This document shows, in pieces, positions 34,866 to 42,418 of a DNA stretch of 64,000 nt. A program made the position numbers and the translations under genes. The notes beneath the pieces are model-generated. The model was not told the DNA's origin, did no database searches, and saw nothing but the letters and a program-made list of their open reading frames with translations. Source of the DNA: Desulfomicrobium baculatum DSM 4028 (GTDB lineage Bacteria; Desulfobacterota; Desulfovibrionia; Desulfovibrionales; Desulfomicrobiaceae); contig NC_013173.1 in NCBI RefSeq assembly GCF_000023225.1, positions 3,722,501 to 3,786,500 on the forward strand, read 5' to 3'. The stretch's first letter is position 1. Every line of letters begins with the position of its first letter.

Positions 34866-36242
34866 TTATTTGCTCAGGAAGTTGGCATTTTGCGTGCCCA
34901 CTTCGGTCAGCCTGTACTCTTCGAGCTTTCTGTACAGCGTCTTGCGTCCGATTCCCAGGACCTGGGCCGCGCGGGATTTGTTGCCCTGCACGGCATGCAT
35001 GACCATGCTGATGTGCGAGCGTTCCAGTTCTTCGAGGGTCGAGAACCCCTTTTCGCGCGGGTTTTGGCAACTCTTCTGGCAAAATGGCAAGGCCTGGACG
35101 TTTATGATGTTGTTCTCGGCCAGGATCATGCCCCGCTCAATGATGTTTTTGAGCTCGCGCACATTGCCGGGCCAGGGGTTGTCCATGAGCTGTTGCATGG
35201 CTCGCGGAGATATCTTGTACTCCTGTCCGTCCTTGGCCAGGGAGACGAGAAAGTATTCGACCAGGGCCGGGATGTCTTCGCGGCGTTCACGCAGCGGCGG
35301 CAGCTCTATATTGAAGACGTTGATGCGGTGGTAGAACGCGTCGTGAAACCGGCCTGCCGCAACCTCCTTCTCCAGGTCCTTGTTGGTGGCAAAGATGAAG
35401 CGCACGTCCACGCAACGCTCCTCCTTGTCGCCCACGCGGCGGAAATGCTGGGTTTCAAGTACGCGCAGGAGCGCGCCCTGCAGCTCCAGGGTCAGTTCGC
35501 CGACCTCGTCGAAGAAGAGCGTGGCCTTGTGCGCCAGAGACAAGAGCCCGTCATGACTGCGGTCCGCTCCGGTAAAGGCCCCTTTGCAGTAGCCGAACAG
35601 CTCGCTTCTGAGCAGTTCCTTGTCGAACGTGCCGCAGTTTTTGATGATGAGTGGCTGGTCCGCGCGCCTGCTTTTGGCGTGCAGGGCCGCAGCGGCCACG
35701 TTCTTGCCCGTGCCGCTTTCGCCGGTCAAAAGAACCGGCACATCGGTCGGCGCGGCTTTTTCGATCAGATAGCGGACATCCTGCACGGACTTGGAATGGC
35801 CAATGAACTTGGGCATGGATTTGTGTTCCGAATTATGGCGCAGCAGTTCGTTTTCCCGCTGCAGCCGGACCCTCTGGTAGGCCTTTTCGATGACTTGTTC
35901 CATGCGATCCAGGGAAAAGGGCTTGGTGATATAGTCGTAGGCCCCGTTTTTCATGGCCTGAACTGCGTTGTCCACGTCGGCGTAGCCGGTGATGAGGATG
36001 ATGGCCACGTTGGGCACCGTTTCAAGCAGCTTGGTCATGAGTTCAAGCCCATTGGCGTCAGGCAGGCGGATGTCCAGGATGATGATGTCGTAATAATGCT
36101 TGTGCAGGTGCTCAAAAGCCTCTTTCGCGCTGCCCACGGTGTGGATGGTGCGGCCAGGCGAGGCCAGTTCGCGGGAGAAGAGCTTGCGTATGTTTGACTC
36201 GTCATCCACGACGAGGATTTCAATGGAATTGAAGATGCTCAT
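34866..36242 (-). CDS. NtrC-family sigma-54 response regulator (alcohol dehydrogenase locus)
   Basis: 458 aa. Receiver domain 1-125 with phospho-acceptor Asp57 (IIILDIRLPD) and the conserved Thr/Lys (LITGYAD, ITKPFS). AAA+ domain with Walker A GESGTGK (174-180) and an intact GAFTGA loop (221-226) for sigma-54. Fis-type HTH at the C-terminus (GNKSRAAQVLGIGRKTLYRKL). Its ATG overlaps the kinase stop by four bases. Third gene of an adh-kinase-regulator operon. Sigma-54-like promoters and matching palindromes flank the adh genes, so it is probably their activator. Confidence 0.93.
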   Translation of the reverse strand: MSIFNSIEILVVDDESNIRKLFSRELASPGRTIHTVGSAKEAFEHLHKHYYDIIILDIRLPDANGLELMTKLLETVPNVAIILITGYADVDNAVQAMKNGAYDYITKPFSLDRMEQVIEKAYQRVRLQRENELLRHNSEHKSMPKFIGHSKSVQDVRYLIEKAAPTDVPVLLTGESGTGKNVAAAALHAKSRRADQPLIIKNCGTFDKELLRSELFGYCKGAFTGADRSHDGLLSLAHKATLFFDEVGELTLELQGALLRVLETQHFRRVGDKEERCVDVRFIFATNKDLEKEVAAGRFHDAFYHRINVFNIELPPLRERREDIPALVEYFLVSLAKDGQEYKISPRAMQQLMDNPWPGNVRELKNIIERGMILAENNIINVQALPFCQKSCQNPREKGFSTLEELERSHISMVMHAVQGNKSRAAQVLGIGRKTLYRKLEEYRLTEVGTQNANFLSK

Positions 36243-37465
36243 GTATCCAGATCCTTGTTGTTGGCTGAAAATCCTGTCGGGAGCATGACCCGAAAGGCGG
36301 AACCCTTGCCGGGTTCGCTGCAGACGTGGATTTCCCCGCCGTGCATTTTGATGATGTTGTAGCAGATGGACAGGCCGATGCCGATGCTGTGCCCTTTGGT
36401 CTTGGTGGTGAAGAACGGGATGAAGAGCTTGTCCAGGGTTTCCGGGGGGATGCCCTGGCCTGTGTCCTCGACGATCAGCGCCGCGCGGTCGGGTCTGTCC
36501 ATGCTGGTGCGGATGGTGATGCTTCCTTTTGACTCAATGGCGTCCATGGCGTTGAGGACGAGGTTCAGGAGGACCTGCTTGAGTTCTCCCTGAGCGCCAC
36601 GGATGGTCACCGGTTCCGGGCACAGATCCTGATGCAGGGTGATGCCTGGGTGCAATTTGATCTGGTGGTGCAGGATCTTCAAAGACCCAGCGACCAGAGA
36701 ATTTAAGTCTATCGTATTGAATTTGCATGTTTTTTGACTGCTGAACGAGAGCAGATTCCCGACAATGTCCCGGCACCGGTTGCATTCTTCGAGGATGGTG
36801 GTCGTATAGTCCGTGAAATCTTCCAGGATTCCCTGTTCCGTGTCCTTGTCCAGCAGGGTCCCGAGGTAGGGCAGACGGCGCTTCAGGGCTTCGGAAAAGC
36901 CGCTGATGGCCGCCAGGGGGTTGTTGATCTCATGGGCCACGCCTGCGGCCAAGAGGCCGATGGTGGCCATTTTTTCGGCCTGGTAATACTTGGCCTGATA
37001 CTCTTTTTCCATGGTCACGTCGCGCTTTGAGACAAGGACCGTGCGTACATGGCTCTTGTCGTCGAACATGGGCGAGGCCACGACTTCGAAGTGCAGGCTG
37101 CGGTCCGGCCTGTGGTCTATATATGATGCCCGGTCGGGCTTCCCGGTTTGCAGGGCCGTGCGCAAGGGGCAGACTTTGCAGGGCTCGGAGCCTCCCCGAA
37201 AGACCTGATAACAGAAGAGGCCTTCCGGATGCGGGATGTCGAAATAGTCGTGGAAGACTTTGTTGACGTAGACAATGCGGTAATCCGGCGAAACCACTGC
37301 CAAAAGATCCATGATTCCGTTCAGGATGTCCTGGATTTCCTGCTTTTTTCTTTCAAGCTCCGCGTTGTAGGTCTCCAGCTCGCCCATTTTTTCCTGCACT
37401 TCGCGGAAAAATCCGAGCTTGGTATATTCAGGCCCGACGATGTCGCTGAGCGTGGTCTTGCCCAT
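36239..37465 (-). CDS. PAS sensor histidine kinase
   Basis: 408-aa soluble kinase without membrane segments. An N-terminal coiled coil (about 20-48) leads to a PAS domain (50-150) with three clustered Cys (85, 96 and 99 in FCYQVF and PCKVCPLRTAL) that could bind a metal/cluster or respond to redox. The HisKA phospho-acceptor is His178 (GVAHEINNPLAA); the HATPase has N-box NLVLNAMDAI and G-boxes VEDTGQGIP and GHSIGIGLSI. The start overlaps the adh stop by one base (TGATG) and has AGGAGG eight bases before it. Cognate partner is the next gene. Confidence 0.92.
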   Translation of the reverse strand: MGKTTLSDIVGPEYTKLGFFREVQEKMGELETYNAELERKKQEIQDILNGIMDLLAVVSPDYRIVYVNKVFHDYFDIPHPEGLFCYQVFRGGSEPCKVCPLRTALQTGKPDRASYIDHRPDRSLHFEVVASPMFDDKSHVRTVLVSKRDVTMEKEYQAKYYQAEKMATIGLLAAGVAHEINNPLAAISGFSEALKRRLPYLGTLLDKDTEQGILEDFTDYTTTILEECNRCRDIVGNLLSFSSQKTCKFNTIDLNSLVAGSLKILHHQIKLHPGITLHQDLCPEPVTIRGAQGELKQVLLNLVLNAMDAIESKGSITIRTSMDRPDRAALIVEDTGQGIPPETLDKLFIPFFTTKTKGHSIGIGLSICYNIIKMHGGEIHVCSEPGKGSAFRVMLPTGFSANNKDLDT

Positions 37466-38607
37466 CACCAGACCTCCTGGCAGATGGCCAGTAATTGCTC
37501 GGCCGTGGCCGGGCGGGGATTGGTCAGCAGGCAGGCGTCCTTGGTGGCCATCTCGCAGATCTGGGGGAAAGCGGACTCGTCGTCCACAATTTCCCGGAAA
37601 TGAACCGGCGCGCCGAGTTCCAGAAAAATCTCTTTCAGACGTTTGATGCCCCCTTCGGCGGTTTGCAGGGAGGAGGACAGACGCTTGCCGAGGACAATTT
37701 CTCCGATGATGGCCATCTTTTCTTCGCAGGCGGGCAGGTTGTAGCTCATGACTGCCGGGAGCAGCACCGGGTGAACCATCCCATGCGTGGTATCGAAAAA
37801 TCCGCCCAGGGAATGGGCAATGGCGTGGCAGGCACCTAGGCTGGCGTTGCTGAAACTCATACCTGCGCACACGGCGGCCATGGACAGGTTTTCCATGGCC
37901 AGGGGGTCGCGGGTTTTGAGCGCGGGTTTGAGGTTGTGCAGAATGAGATGCATGGCTTTCAAGGCCTGGGTCTCGGTCAGCGTGTGTGCGATGAGCGAGA
38001 CGTAGGATTCCACCGCATGGGACAATGCGTCCACAGCGGACGTCACGACGAGGTCGTCGCTGGCCGTGGAGAGCATATCCGGATCGATGATCGATACGTT
38101 GGGAGTCAGGGAGCGGCTGATCAGCGACATCTTCACCTTGCGCGTGACATCGGTGATGATGGCGAATTGGGAAATATCCGAACCGCTCCCGGCCGTGGAC
38201 GGCAGGAAGATCATGGGCGGCAAGGGCCTGATGATCAGGTTTGCGCCTTCATAGTCCTGAATCGTGCCGCCGTTGCTGGCCACGGTGGCTACGCCCTTGG
38301 CCATGTCGAGCGGGCTGCCCCCGCCAAGACCAATGACCACGTCCGCTCCTTCCGCCTTGTAAAGGTCCGCGCCGAGATGCACTTCGTAGTCACGCGGGTT
38401 GGAACTTACATTTGAATAGTACACCCATTTCAAGGCCGAAGCCTCAAGAACCCCGATGAGCTTGCCGACCCAGCCGCTGCGTTCGAGGCCCGGATCACTG
38501 ACGACGAAGACCTTCTTGGCTCCGAGTTGCAGAGCGTACGATCCTGTATATTCCATGCTGCCGTGCCCGAAAATGATTTCTGGCAGAGAGAACTTTCTTA
38601 TATCCAT
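37465..38607 (-). CDS. Iron-containing alcohol dehydrogenase (first gene of the kinase/regulator operon)
   Basis: 380-aa group III dehydrogenase. NAD-binding GLGGGSPLDMAKG near residue 95; the metal-binding region holds DALSHAVESY and the His residues of ACHAIAHSLGGFFDTTHGMVH (about 250-270). Likely interconverts a primary alcohol and its aldehyde with NAD(H). ATG 38607 has AGGAG eight bases upstream. Unusually it is cotranscribed with its putative two-component regulators. It shares a roughly 500-bp divergent control region with a second alcohol dehydrogenase, from which it differs substantially in sequence. Substrate not determinable. Confidence 0.92.
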   Translation of the reverse strand: MDIRKFSLPEIIFGHGSMEYTGSYALQLGAKKVFVVSDPGLERSGWVGKLIGVLEASALKWVYYSNVSSNPRDYEVHLGADLYKAEGADVVIGLGGGSPLDMAKGVATVASNGGTIQDYEGANLIIRPLPPMIFLPSTAGSGSDISQFAIITDVTRKVKMSLISRSLTPNVSIIDPDMLSTASDDLVVTSAVDALSHAVESYVSLIAHTLTETQALKAMHLILHNLKPALKTRDPLAMENLSMAAVCAGMSFSNASLGACHAIAHSLGGFFDTTHGMVHPVLLPAVMSYNLPACEEKMAIIGEIVLGKRLSSSLQTAEGGIKRLKEIFLELGAPVHFREIVDDESAFPQICEMATKDACLLTNPRPATAEQLLAICQEVW

Positions 38608-38675
38608 ATCTTCTCCTCGCGACGGGGTTGTCTTCGTGATCCGGGGGTGGTCCAACTGCTCTTGCTGGTGCATCG

Positions 38676-39016: not shown

Positions 39017-39031
39017 TGGCCTCATTCTTGC
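39017..39031 (+). promoter_or_regulatory. Sigma-54 promoter of the rightward adh
   Basis: TGGCCTCATTCTTGC matches the -24/-12 consensus (TGGCAC-N5-TTGC) with exact GG-to-GC spacing and all core bases. The predicted start is near 39043, about 60 bp before the adh ATG. Confidence 0.75.
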
Positions 39032-39102: not shown

Positions 39103-40284
39103 ATGGCTGTTCAAGAAATGGTGTATGGATTTTTCATTCCCAGCGTTACTCTGATCGGTATTGGTGCTTCCAAGCAGATTCCTGAGAAAATCAAGGCTCT
39201 GGGCGGCAGTAAGCCCCTGGTAGTTACCGACAAGGGCATCACCGGCTGCGGTCTGACCAAGCAGATCACCGACCTGCTGGATGCCGCTGGAATGAAGTAT
39301 GAAGTATACGACGAAACCATTCCGAATCCCACGGATAACAACGTCCACGCTGGTGTCGACGTGTACAAGAAGACCAAGTGCGATTCGTTGATCTCCCTGG
39401 GCGGCGGCAGCTCGCATGACTGCGGTAAGGGTATCGGCCTTGTTGTTGCCAACGGCGGCAAGATCCATGACTTCGAAGGCGTGGACAAGTCCACCAAGCC
39501 CATGCCTCCATATCTGGCCGTCAACACCACCGCCGGCACCGCTTCTGAAATGACCCGTTTCTGTATCATCACCGATACTTCCCGCAAGGTGAAGATGGCC
39601 ATCGTCGACTGGCGCGTCACCCCCGGCATCGCCATCGATGATCCGATGCTGATGGTCGGCATGCCCCCGGCGCTGACTGCCGCCACCGGCATGGACGCTC
39701 TGACCCACGCCGTGGAAGCCTATGTTTCCACCATCGCCACCCCCATGACCGACGCCTGCGCCCAGAAGGCCATCGAACTGATCGCCAAATACCTGCGCAA
39801 AGCCGTTGCCAATGGTAAAGACATCGAAGCCCGCGAAGGCATGTGTTTCGCGCAGTACCTGGCCGGCATGGCTTTCAACAACGCCAGCCTCGGTCACGTC
39901 CACGCCATGGCTCACCAGCTCGGCGGCTTCTACGACCTGCCGCACGGTGAATGCAACGCCATCCTGCTGCCCCACGTCGAACGCGCCAACATGAACGCCA
40001 GGCTCGAACGCTTTGTCGACATGGCCAAGTTCCTGGGCGAGAATGTTGAAGGCATGTCCATCCGCGCCGCTGCCGAAAAGGCCCTCGACGCCATCAAGCA
40101 GCTGTCCACCGACGTCGGTATTCCTTCCGGCCTGATCGAGTTGGGCAAGCGCTACGGCAAGAACGTCAAGAAGGAAGACATCGCCATCATGACCGGCAAT
40201 GCTCAGAAAGACGCTTGCGGTTTCACCAACCCTGTCTGCCTGAAAGACGCCGACGTTGCTCGCATTTACGAGGCTGCCCTGTAA
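39103..40284 (+). CDS. adh: Iron-containing alcohol dehydrogenase (DhaT/Adh2-like)
   Basis: 393-aa group III NAD-dependent dehydrogenase, close in layout to ethanol and 1,3-propanediol dehydrogenases of sulfate reducers. NAD-binding SLGGGSSHDCGKGIG near 97-111; catalytic-site region TTAGTASEMTRF; Fe ligands in DALTHAVEAY (Asp, His) and in HVHAMAHQLGGFYDLPHGECN (His residues). Start ATG with GAGG upstream. Strongly biased, highly regular codon use hints at high expression. Followed by a strong terminator, with a sigma-54 promoter upstream. Probably the main ethanol dehydrogenase, feeding aldehyde to the oxidoreductase downstream. Confidence 0.95.
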   Translation: MAVQEMVYGFFIPSVTLIGIGASKQIPEKIKALGGSKPLVVTDKGITGCGLTKQITDLLDAAGMKYEVYDETIPNPTDNNVHAGVDVYKKTKCDSLISLGGGSSHDCGKGIGLVVANGGKIHDFEGVDKSTKPMPPYLAVNTTAGTASEMTRFCIITDTSRKVKMAIVDWRVTPGIAIDDPMLMVGMPPALTAATGMDALTHAVEAYVSTIATPMTDACAQKAIELIAKYLRKAVANGKDIEAREGMCFAQYLAGMAFNNASLGHVHAMAHQLGGFYDLPHGECNAILLPHVERANMNARLERFVDMAKFLGENVEGMSIRAAAEKALDAIKQLSTDVGIPSGLIELGKRYGKNVKKEDIAIMTGNAQKDACGFTNPVCLKDADVARIYEAAL

Positions 40285-40293
40285 TGAACACGT

Positions 40294-40323
40294 GCGCGCC
40301 GGTTATCCGGCGCGCTTTTTTCC
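40294..40323 (+). terminator. Rho-independent terminator of adh
   Basis: Perfect 9-bp stem GCGCGCCGG / CCGGCGCGC (40294-40302, 40307-40315), loop TTAT, followed by a run of T from 40316. Ten bases after the adh stop. Confidence 0.93.
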
Positions 40324-40343
40324 GACAGAGAACGGAGGTGCGC

Positions 40344-40496
40344 ATGTGGTTTGACGATGCTTCGCTGCTTTTGCTGGAAGAGGCGGATTGGAAAGTCAGC
40401 CTTGAGCGCGATGAGGTCGGGGCCACTGTGCGCGATGAAGATTTTCTGGAAGCGGCCAGATTCGACGAAACGTGGTGTGCGAGCCCGTTGTTTTGA
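40344..40496 (+). CDS. Small acidic protein of unknown function (50 aa)
   Basis: 50 aa, starting MWFDDASLLLLEEADW. The ATG at 40344 has an excellent ribosome-binding site (CGGAGGTGCGC). The product is rich in Asp/Glu with three Trp and one Cys, without signal peptide or membrane helix. It lies just after the adh terminator and is followed by its own strong terminator at 40580-40622, so read-through or a local promoter would be needed for expression. I recognise no family. The ribosome site and position between adh and the aldehyde oxidoreductase argue that it is real. Confidence 0.6.
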   Translation: MWFDDASLLLLEEADWKVSLERDEVGATVRDEDFLEAARFDETWCASPLF

Positions 40497-40514
40497 AATG
40501 GGAACGCATGCACG

Positions 40515-40533
40515 CCGGGTCATTTTGATCCGG
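40515..40533. promoter_or_regulatory. TCA-N3-TGA palindrome, copy B (candidate upstream activator site)
   Basis: CCGGGTCA-TTT-TGATCCGG: 8-bp arms with one G:T mismatch, the same TCATTTTGA core as the site between the two adh genes. It lies about 170 bp upstream of the aldehyde oxidoreductase start and about 115 bp from a sigma-54-like motif at 40639. Confidence 0.55.
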
Positions 40534-40579
40534 AACCGAAGCGTGAGACTGCCGTAATTTATGATGCCAGTAACTGGGG

Positions 40580-40622
40580 CAGGGTTGGGGGTTGGCATTC
40601 CTCCCAGCCCTGTCTTTTTTTT
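40580..40622 (+). terminator. Rho-independent terminator before the aldehyde oxidoreductase
   Basis: 12-bp stem: CAGGGTTGGGGG (40580-40591) with CTCCCAGCCCTG (40601-40612), including two G-U pairs, loop of 9, then T8 at 40615-40622. It ends any transcript of the 50-aa gene, or acts as an attenuator for the oxidoreductase. Confidence 0.85.
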
Positions 40623-40638
40623 GGAGTTATGTCTTGGC

Positions 40639-40653
40639 GGGCATCATGGCTGC
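40639..40653 (+). promoter_or_regulatory. Candidate sigma-54 promoter of the aldehyde oxidoreductase
   Basis: GGGCATCATGGCTGC keeps GGCA at -24 and TGC at -12 with exact 12-base GG-to-GC spacing, but deviates from the consensus at flanking bases. The same bases form a hairpin (GCGGGCA / TGCCCGC). Predicted start near 40665, 32 bp before the ATG. Confidence 0.4.
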
Positions 40654-40696
40654 CCGCTAAACCCTTATTACTCGGATTAATGATCAAGGAGCATGC

Positions 40697-42418
40697 ATGA
40701 AAGTCCTACGCATCAATACCAGAACCAAGAGCTTCAAGTTTGAAGAACTCGGCGAGCTGGCCGGTCTTGGAGGCCGCGCCCTGACCTCCAGAGTGGTCAA
40801 CAAGGAAGTCCCGGCGAACTGTCACCCGCTTTCCGCCGAAAACAAGCTTATTTTCGCGGCCGGCGTGCTGGCTCCGACCAACGCCGCCAACTCCGGCCGT
40901 GTCTCCGTCGGCGCCAAGTCGCCCCTGACCGGCGGCATCAAGGAAAGCAACTCCGGCGGCCAGTTCGCGCACACCCTGCCCAAGCTGGACCTCCTGGCCG
41001 TCATCCTCGAGGACAAGCCCGAGGCCGGAAGCCCCATGCAGGAGATCTTCATCTCCGCAGACAAGGTCGTGTTCAAGGATTCCGCCGTGGTCGGCATGCG
41101 CAACTATGCGGCCCAGGAAAAGCTCCTGTCCGCCTACGGCGACAAGTCCGTGACCGCACTGATCGGACCCGCCGGCGAGCAGTGCCTGTGCGCCGCCACC
41201 ATCCAGTTCTCCGATCCGGAAGGCCTGCCCTCCCGCTCCGCCGGTCGCGGCGGCCTGGGCGCGGTCATGGGTTCCAAGGGCGTCAAGGCCATCATCCTTG
41301 ACGGCGAAGCCAACGCGAAGACCGTCTATGGCAACGAAGAACTGTTCAAGGAAGCCCGCAAGGAATGGGTCGACGTGCTGCGCACGCATCCCGTCACCAG
41401 CCAGGGCCTGCCCGGGTTCGGCACTGCGGTGCTGGTCAACGTCATCAACGAGGCCGGCGCGCTGCCGACCAAGAACTTCCGCATGGGCAAGTTCGACGGC
41501 GCGGAGAAGATCTCCGGCGAGACCCTGGCCGCCAATATCGAAAAGCGCGGCGGCAAGACCAAGCACGGCTGTCACACCGGCTGCGTGATCCAGTGCTCCC
41601 AGGTTTACCACGGCAAGGACGGCAAATACCTGACCACTGGCTTCGAGTACGAGACCATCTGGGGCTTCGGCGCGAACCTCCTCATCGACAACCTTGACGA
41701 CATCGCGCAGATGGACCGCACCTGCGACGAAATAGGCATGGACACCATCGAGATGGCCAACACCATGGCCATGGCCATGGAAGGCGGCGTCTTGGCCTGG
41801 GGCGACAGCAAGGGCGTCCTGGCCGAACTGGACAAGGTCGGCTCCAAGGATCCACTGGGCCGCATCTACGGCAACGGCACCTCCTACACGGCCAAGGCTT
41901 TCGGCGTGGACCGCATCCCCGTGGTCAAGAACCAGGCCCTGCCCGCCTATGACCCGCGCGCAGTCAAGGGCGTCGGCGTAACCTACGCCACCACCCCCAT
42001 GGGCGCGGACCACACCGCCGGCTACGGCGTGTGCCAGAACGTGCTCAAAGTCGGCGGCGACGTCGACGGCCACAAGAACGAAGGCAACATCGAACTGTCC
42101 AAGAACCTGCAGATCGCCACTGCGGCCGTCGATTCCCTGGGCCTGTGCCTGTTCGTGGCCTTCGCCATCCTGGACGACGCCCGCGGCGTGCCCTGCATGG
42201 CCAAGCTGATTACCGGCCTGACCGGCAAGGAAATGAGCGTTGACGAGATGATGGGCATCGGCGTGAACTGCCTCAAAGACGAGCTGGATTTCAACAAGCG
42301 CGCCGGCTTCACCGACGAAGACGACCAGCTGCCCCGCTTCTTCCGCGAAGAACTCCTTGCTCCCCATAACGTGGGCTGGGGCTACTCCACCGAGGAACTG
42401 CAGGCCGCCAAGGTCTAG
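40697..42418 (+). CDS. aor: Aldehyde:ferredoxin oxidoreductase (tungsten/molybdenum pterin enzyme)
   Basis: 573-aa cytoplasmic enzyme oxidising aldehydes to acids with ferredoxin as electron acceptor. The AOR N-domain holds GGRALTSRVV, NSGRVSVGAKSPLTGG and GRGGLGAVMGSKGVKAI. The iron-sulfur ligands are Cys292, 296 and 300 (KHGCHTGCVIQCSQ) with a fourth at Cys484 (DSLGLCLFVAF). Pterin-binding features include FEYETIWGFGAN. Length is slightly below archaeal AOR (about 605). Physically linked to two alcohol dehydrogenases, a small ORF and shared palindromes, so it probably removes the aldehyde formed from ethanol. Tungsten versus molybdenum cannot be told from sequence. Confidence 0.95.
   Translation: MKVLRINTRTKSFKFEELGELAGLGGRALTSRVVNKEVPANCHPLSAENKLIFAAGVLAPTNAANSGRVSVGAKSPLTGGIKESNSGGQFAHTLPKLDLLAVILEDKPEAGSPMQEIFISADKVVFKDSAVVGMRNYAAQEKLLSAYGDKSVTALIGPAGEQCLCAATIQFSDPEGLPSRSAGRGGLGAVMGSKGVKAIILDGEANAKTVYGNEELFKEARKEWVDVLRTHPVTSQGLPGFGTAVLVNVINEAGALPTKNFRMGKFDGAEKISGETLAANIEKRGGKTKHGCHTGCVIQCSQVYHGKDGKYLTTGFEYETIWGFGANLLIDNLDDIAQMDRTCDEIGMDTIEMANTMAMAMEGGVLAWGDSKGVLAELDKVGSKDPLGRIYGNGTSYTAKAFGVDRIPVVKNQALPAYDPRAVKGVGVTYATTPMGADHTAGYGVCQNVLKVGGDVDGHKNEGNIELSKNLQIATAAVDSLGLCLFVAFAILDDARGVPCMAKLITGLTGKEMSVDEMMGIGVNCLKDELDFNKRAGFTDEDDQLPRFFREELLAPHNVGWGYSTEELQAAKV

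Follow-up and report, generated by a model that had tools for sequence, protein, structure and literature searches.

Evidence for a conserved small acidic protein gene beside an iron-containing alcohol dehydrogenase gene in Desulfomicrobium

The locus

The 64,000-nucleotide stretch of the Desulfomicrobium baculatum DSM 4028 chromosome analyzed here (NC_013173.1, positions 3,722,501 to 3,786,500; hereafter the window) contains a very short open frame between genes for an iron-containing alcohol dehydrogenase (adh) and an aldehyde ferredoxin oxidoreductase (aor). A preliminary description made from the DNA letters had singled out this frame as a 50-residue acidic protein between adh and aor, and the coordinates and the Pfam matches of the two neighbors agree with that placement (Table 1). 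The locus raises three questions: whether so short a frame is a gene, which neighbor it accompanies, and what its product might do. Other genomes are identified by labels (G008 and so on) where they must be told apart.

Table 1. Features of the adh-aor locus, in window coordinates
Feature	Position	Strand	Remarks
Sigma-54 type promoter pattern TGGCCTCATTCTTGC	39017..39031	+	upstream of adh
adh, iron-containing alcohol dehydrogenase, 393 aa	39103..40284	+	Pfam Fe-ADH 2.6e-46, ADH_Fe_C 1.2e-67
GC-rich hairpin and T6, probable partial terminator	40294..40321	+	between adh and the small frame
Ribosome-binding site CGGAGG	40333..40338	+	read in the window sequence
Gene (very likely) for 50-aa acidic small protein	40344..40496	+	open frame, conserved, constrained
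Conserved segment, aor side	40543..40648	+	terminator about 40576-40622, dyad-like motif 40627-40646; RNA model R1
aor, aldehyde ferredoxin oxidoreductase, 573 aa	40697..42418	+	Pfam AFOR_N, AFOR_C

The small frame as a gene

The frame translates as MWFDDASLLLLEEADWKVSLERDEVGATVRDEDFLEAARFDETWCASPLF, a protein with a pI of 4.05 and a charge of about -10.5. The ribosome-binding site noted in the preliminary description is present, with a spacing to the ATG of five bases rather than the seven given there. In 11 of the 12 loci of the genus that carry the frame, GAGG occurs within the last 18 nt upstream of the ATG, and the remaining locus has AGGGGA. Codon usage is ordinary, as had been claimed: the frame scores 0.19 log-odds per codon, while 50-codon stretches of the 35 large open reading frames of the window average 0.22, and 1.4% of off-frame stretches score as high.

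All 12 loci have the same start and an open frame, and in the genus alignment most changes are synonymous. Pooled pN/pS over the first 42 codons of the 12 sequences is about 0.31 (0.31-0.32), the lowest of the six frames (0.48, 0.94, 0.98, 2.04, and 2.06 for the other five), and none of 200 column shuffles of the alignment (mean 0.91) reached a value as low. Given this ratio and a frame that is open in every locus, the reading frame is more than a chance occurrence. Stops or frameshifts in relatives, together with no sign of translation, had been named as what would overturn the proposal; as for the first, the frame is instead conserved, open, and under purifying selection. One could still suppose that the frame arose by chance, within a conserved 3' untranslated region or opposite a gene on the other strand, since antisense frame -0 has no stop in 8 of the 12 loci and scores 0.18 for codon usage in the window, against 0.19 in the sense direction. 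That antisense frame is interrupted by stops in the other 4 loci, however, and pN/pS, at 0.32 for the sense frame, is 0.98 and 0.48 for antisense frames -0 and -1. With the start and the ribosome-binding site also preserved in relatives, we consider a chance frame extremely improbable. Comparative sequence evidence thus makes positions 40344-40496 very likely a genuine protein-coding gene.

Fifteen residues are invariant among the 12 sequences (M1, W2, D4, D5, S7, L8, L11, E12, E13, D15, W16, K17, E24, D31, and E36), and the N-terminal half follows the pattern MW[FI]DDxSLLxLEExDWK in all 12. Outside this half the protein diverges rapidly, and past about residue 45 the tail is variable in both length and sequence and is not conserved.

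Distribution

A protein search found the small protein in 12 of 16 Desulfomicrobium genomes, including that of the window, at identities of 57 to 100%. Each match lies directly 3' of the same iron-containing alcohol dehydrogenase, which in G008 is cut short where the contig stops. The genome of the window has a single copy of the frame. In G007 the search gave a further match (E 0.549, 38% identity over 32 residues), which we ascribe to chance. A profile of the 12 sequences matched 12 of a sample of 247 genomes of the order at E ≤ 0.1, all of them within the genus. Among 395 sampled genomes of the phylum, three had matches at E ≤ 0.01, one being the genome of the window. The other two (E about 0.008) were discarded as chance matches, one having two internal stops and the other lying inside a 2089-residue frame. 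The preliminary description had suggested looking for the frame in other Desulfovibrionales; conservation within the genus is clear, but among the 247 order and 395 phylum genomes there was no convincing homologue outside it.

Less certain frames follow adh in four further genomes. In the sister genus, g3, the frames of G024 (MWDDDADIALITVDAGATLYAEEVLAGVAEDMAGDGAC) and G070 (MWDDDADLHLESTDLSAIIGADEMLRGVVDDVWDEE) are 36-38 residues long and acidic, begin MWDDDAD 10 nt past the adh stop, and have a purine-rich ribosome-binding site; a hairpin (seen by eye) and then aor follow. Of 500 shuffles, 5 scored as high against the profile as G024 and 5 as high as G070; in the pairwise comparison 5 and 1 did. 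Based on the position and the shared MWxDDA start, these frames are probable homologues of the Desulfomicrobium small protein. The third g3 genome, G073, is without this adh. The congeners G014 and G004 have acidic frames of 53 and 31 residues after adh, which share WILELEETVW and differ by a 63-nt in-frame gap. Shuffles reached their profile scores in 9 and 2 of 500 trials and their pairwise scores in 172 and 36 of 500, and as relatives of the small protein they are doubtful.

Family and structure searches

The absence of a recognizable family, also noted in the preliminary description, held in every collection searched. Pfam has no family for the small protein of the window at E ≤ 1 (a PycTM match of 1 of the 12 members, E 0.26, is at chance level), and no NCBIfam model reaches its cut-off. 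A profile search of the PDB gave a best E-value of 5.1, phage and plasmid records held no match at E ≤ 1, and 47 pattern matches in viral contigs included no relative of the protein. There are two weak likenesses to phage families. Residues 7-37 resemble NCBIfam LAPAL_fam (NF053583) at E 0.013, with 2 of the 12 members at E ≤ 1, and residues 13-37 resemble phrog_3243 at E 0.0039, with 7 of the 12 members at E ≤ 0.1. Membership in LAPAL_fam was rejected at 14.9 bits against a curated cut-off of 60. Both profiles span about 290 positions, whereas the match is a short acidic stretch, and neither the phage records nor the viral contigs held a relative. Among the literature matches listed, whose titles and abstract openings were considered, there was no work on the small frame.

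An AlphaFold2 model computed from three sequences has a mean pLDDT of 65 and a pTM of 0.29, with a helix at residues 5-28. The pLDDT is 84 and 78 over residues 1-20 and below 60 beyond them, and the prediction suggests an N-terminal helix. The small protein is very likely the product of an as yet unclassified gene of Desulfomicrobium, and probably also of g3.

Association with adh or with aor

Seventeen of the 22 genomes of the family contain adh, 16 of them at E ≤ 1e-180 and the other being G008, where it is truncated by the contig end. A short acidic frame follows adh in 16 of these 17 (12 clear, 2 probable, and 2 doubtful); in G018, adh is present with no such frame after it. None of the five family genomes without this adh has a match to the small-protein profile. 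An adh accessory should occur with adh and never without it, and this is the distribution found, all 12 clear frames being beside adh.

The next gene is aor in 11 of the 12 genus loci and in both g3 loci, and the small protein could therefore be a chaperone or electron-transfer accessory of the downstream oxidoreductase. G008 speaks against such a role. Here adh and the small frame (64% identity) are followed by a long frame in the opposite orientation, and the only aor sequence elsewhere is a C-terminal fragment at a contig edge, 48% identical. A hidden aor copy is unlikely, although the assembly, 93% complete in 450 contigs, leaves some room for one. An aor accessory should be lost along with the adjacent aor, but G008 keeps the frame. 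The frame is also single in the genome of the window despite a second aor there, and a strong terminator separates it from its own aor neighbor. We consider an accessory of the oxidoreductase quite unlikely. The small frame tracks adh rather than aor in the genomes compared, the strongest single case being G008, which retains adh and the frame with no adjacent aor.

There was no aor match in G014 at E ≤ 0.001, and in G004, a single contig, the search gave only a 25%-identical stretch at 3.8e-4. In both, the gene after the doubtful short frame, in the place that aor takes in Desulfomicrobium relatives, has a translation (MKTSARNMFVGQISSIRQGMVV...) that seems to resemble molybdenum-pterin-binding (Mop/TOBE) proteins.

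Outside the family, G017 has adh and then aor, with no similar frame visible by eye. In G025 and G021, of the same order, adh is followed by a hairpin and an iron-sulfur gene that we call HdrC-like from its translation; a sigma-54 pattern precedes adh and the small frame is absent. Neither adh nor its promoter therefore requires the frame. The protein might then have a lineage-specific function unrelated to alcohol oxidation and simply share the adh transcript, as clear matches in a single genus and the rapid divergence outside the N-terminal half would allow. Its place beside adh in 12 of the 12 genomes that clearly have it, and the lack of any match in the five family genomes without this adh, make such a function improbable. 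Since in one species the frame stays by adh where aor is gone, the small protein probably assists or regulates alcohol oxidation. The preliminary description had considered an accessory, chaperone, or regulatory role possible from its position in an alcohol oxidation locus, between adh and aor; an accessory or regulatory role would fit the comparisons, but G008 narrows the link to adh.

Promoter and expression

We take TGGY-N7-YTGC to be a sigma-54 type consensus. Within the 300 nt upstream of adh that were scanned, 19 of 20 loci (a raw count) have this pattern, at a distance of 78-143 nt from the ATG, and it spans several families of the order. G018 is the sole exception in this set, which leaves out both G026 loci as well as G008 with its truncated adh.

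Between adh and the small frame, the hairpin at 40294-40315 with its T6 tail has a folding energy of -21.2 kcal/mol (z -3.9; 1 of 200 shuffles as stable). A T-run of at least five follows the hairpin in 7 of the 12 genomes (G000, G012, G003, G001, G005, G007, and G008), so that read-through of a partial adh terminator is the likely route of expression of the small frame. In the other five (G006, G011, G013, G002, and G010) the hairpin has no T-run and so need not be a terminator everywhere, and in g3 the 10-nt gap between adh and the frame leaves no room for a hairpin. A simple scan between the adh stop and the small-frame ATG found no sigma-70-like site. The suggestion that expression depends on read-through of the adh terminator is hence plausible, but it may not carry over to the five loci without a T-run.

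On the minus strand beside adh (34866-38673) there are an NtrC-type response regulator, a PAS histidine kinase, and a second iron-containing alcohol dehydrogenase. The kinase frame as listed, from 37870, overlaps this dehydrogenase, and the true kinase start is therefore probably further downstream. The small protein could act on this kinase and on the sigma-54 response regulator, both encoded within 34866-37870 on the minus strand, as a feedback signal of adh expression. Both genes lie beside adh, the sigma-54 pattern before adh is conserved, and one paper describes response regulator DVU2394 as controlling the adh-hdr operon DVU2405-2397 of D. vulgaris Hildenborough (PMC3333781). Feedback of this kind is nevertheless unlikely for a 50-residue protein without any family match and with nothing in its predicted model beyond a helix of moderate confidence, and in G025 and G021 adh has its sigma-54 pattern although no such frame follows the gene.

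The segment between the small frame and aor

The small frame has its own terminator, as had been described, with a folding energy of -28.1 kcal/mol (z -3.8; 0 of 200 shuffles as stable) and a T8 tail. The stop codon of the frame is about 80 nt upstream of this terminator. RNA model R1, built from the conserved segment, has one forward site in 11 of the 22 family genomes and none elsewhere; it was built from the same 11 loci, so that its matches to them are by construction, and the scan scored 150 of several hundred to more than a thousand first-look candidates per genome. Three further R1 hits were set aside as weak opposite-strand matches at the same places. Rfam gave no match at gathering score in the whole window, and of four sub-threshold matches by E-value within 40270-40760 none lies in the segment, which thus corresponds to no known RNA. 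By eye, CTGCC in the segment may form an antiterminator with GGCAG at the base of the terminator, and a TTATGTC...GGCA dyad lies beyond the terminator.

These features bring to mind a leader peptide, whose translation would control transcription into aor through the hairpins. In favor of such a device, the non-coding segment is conserved, R1 placed it nowhere else in the family genomes, and it contains a strong terminator with CTGCC/GGCAG as a possible alternative pairing. Against it, conservation of the protein extends over more than 40 codons, the stop codon is distant from the terminator, and the longest run of codons for one amino acid, four Leu, is not conserved. In addition, the segment was not found in G008, which keeps the frame, and the two are therefore separable. 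We regard a leader peptide as very unlikely.

The second aor in the genome of the window has different upstream DNA. Two aor copies per genome were seen in three species (40697-42418 and G000:C1:3357631-3359349, in loci L059 and L073; also L060/L074 and L075/L061), with 98.5-99.0% identity within each species and 91.9-95.8% between species. The near-identical part begins 13 nt upstream of the ATG and ends at the stop, or in one case 4 nt past it. Judged from these sequences, the copies look like the products of ongoing gene conversion, which could also account for several draft contigs that break off within aor. Ahead of the second aor (L083, around 1501-1520), a dyad, TTATGTCACCCATGACATAT, was seen by eye before a sigma-70-like TTGACT...TAACAT; the adh-linked aor has a weaker dyad upstream than the stand-alone one. 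Such dyads are possibly a site for a common aor regulator. A search for the operator TTATGYCANNNNTGRCATAA with up to three mismatches gave 39 forward matches, whereas the reversed control gave 13; because the pattern is nearly palindromic, each site appears on both strands. The frames around seven of the best sites (Pfam, seven frames at five of these loci) had no common pathway, and the matches were set aside.

A possible modulator of the alcohol dehydrogenase

Some small proteins encoded in enzyme operons modulate the enzyme. The Desulfomicrobium protein resembles this general class in being short, acidic, co-located, and conserved with one enzyme, and differs in that the searches found no sequence relation to any known family. 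We tentatively favor a lineage-specific acidic microprotein, encoded by the second cistron of the adh transcript, that modulates the alcohol dehydrogenase or a protein acting on it; we hold this to be a real possibility, not quite a probability. Transcription would start at the sigma-54 promoter before adh, RNA polymerase would pass the leaky hairpin and read the small gene, and transcription would end at the strong terminator before aor. Partial termination after adh would yield less small protein than dehydrogenase. From the linkage, the acidity, and the conserved Trp residues we infer that the protein may bind the iron alcohol dehydrogenase, or else some protein that acts on this enzyme, and once bound it might tune the activity or assembly of the enzyme at a level below that of the enzyme itself.

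The matches in 12 of 16 genomes of the genus, the pN/pS of 0.31, the linkage to adh, the sigma-54 pattern, and the g3 frames are consistent with such a modulator. On the other side, the hairpin and T6 could terminate most adh transcripts, the C-terminus is not conserved, the g3 similarity is marginal and that of G014 and G004 weaker, and the same adh occurs outside the family without such a frame in the loci read. A bolder version, which we think improbable, would make this a new, fast-evolving family of acidic microproteins. In Desulfomicrobium and its sister genus they would dock on the iron alcohol dehydrogenase, at a sub-stoichiometric dosage set by the leaky hairpin, and gate either its activity or the hand-over of aldehyde to the oxidoreductase.

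The nearest known system is the DVU2405-2397 operon, in which an alcohol dehydrogenase gene is reported to be under the control of DVU2394, a response regulator with a nearby locus number; apart from D. vulgaris Hildenborough, the paper reports the DVU2394 motif solely from D. vulgaris Miyazaki (PMC3333781). The gene order of G025 and G021 (adh, hairpin, HdrC-like gene) resembles that operon, whereas in Desulfomicrobium the small frame takes the place of the hdr genes after adh, with aor further on.

With the small frame, a central energy pathway of sulfate reducers gains a small protein family that is well supported and unnamed, along with a likely partner for it. If the protein is a conserved small modulator of ethanol oxidation, it would be a missing component of that pathway.
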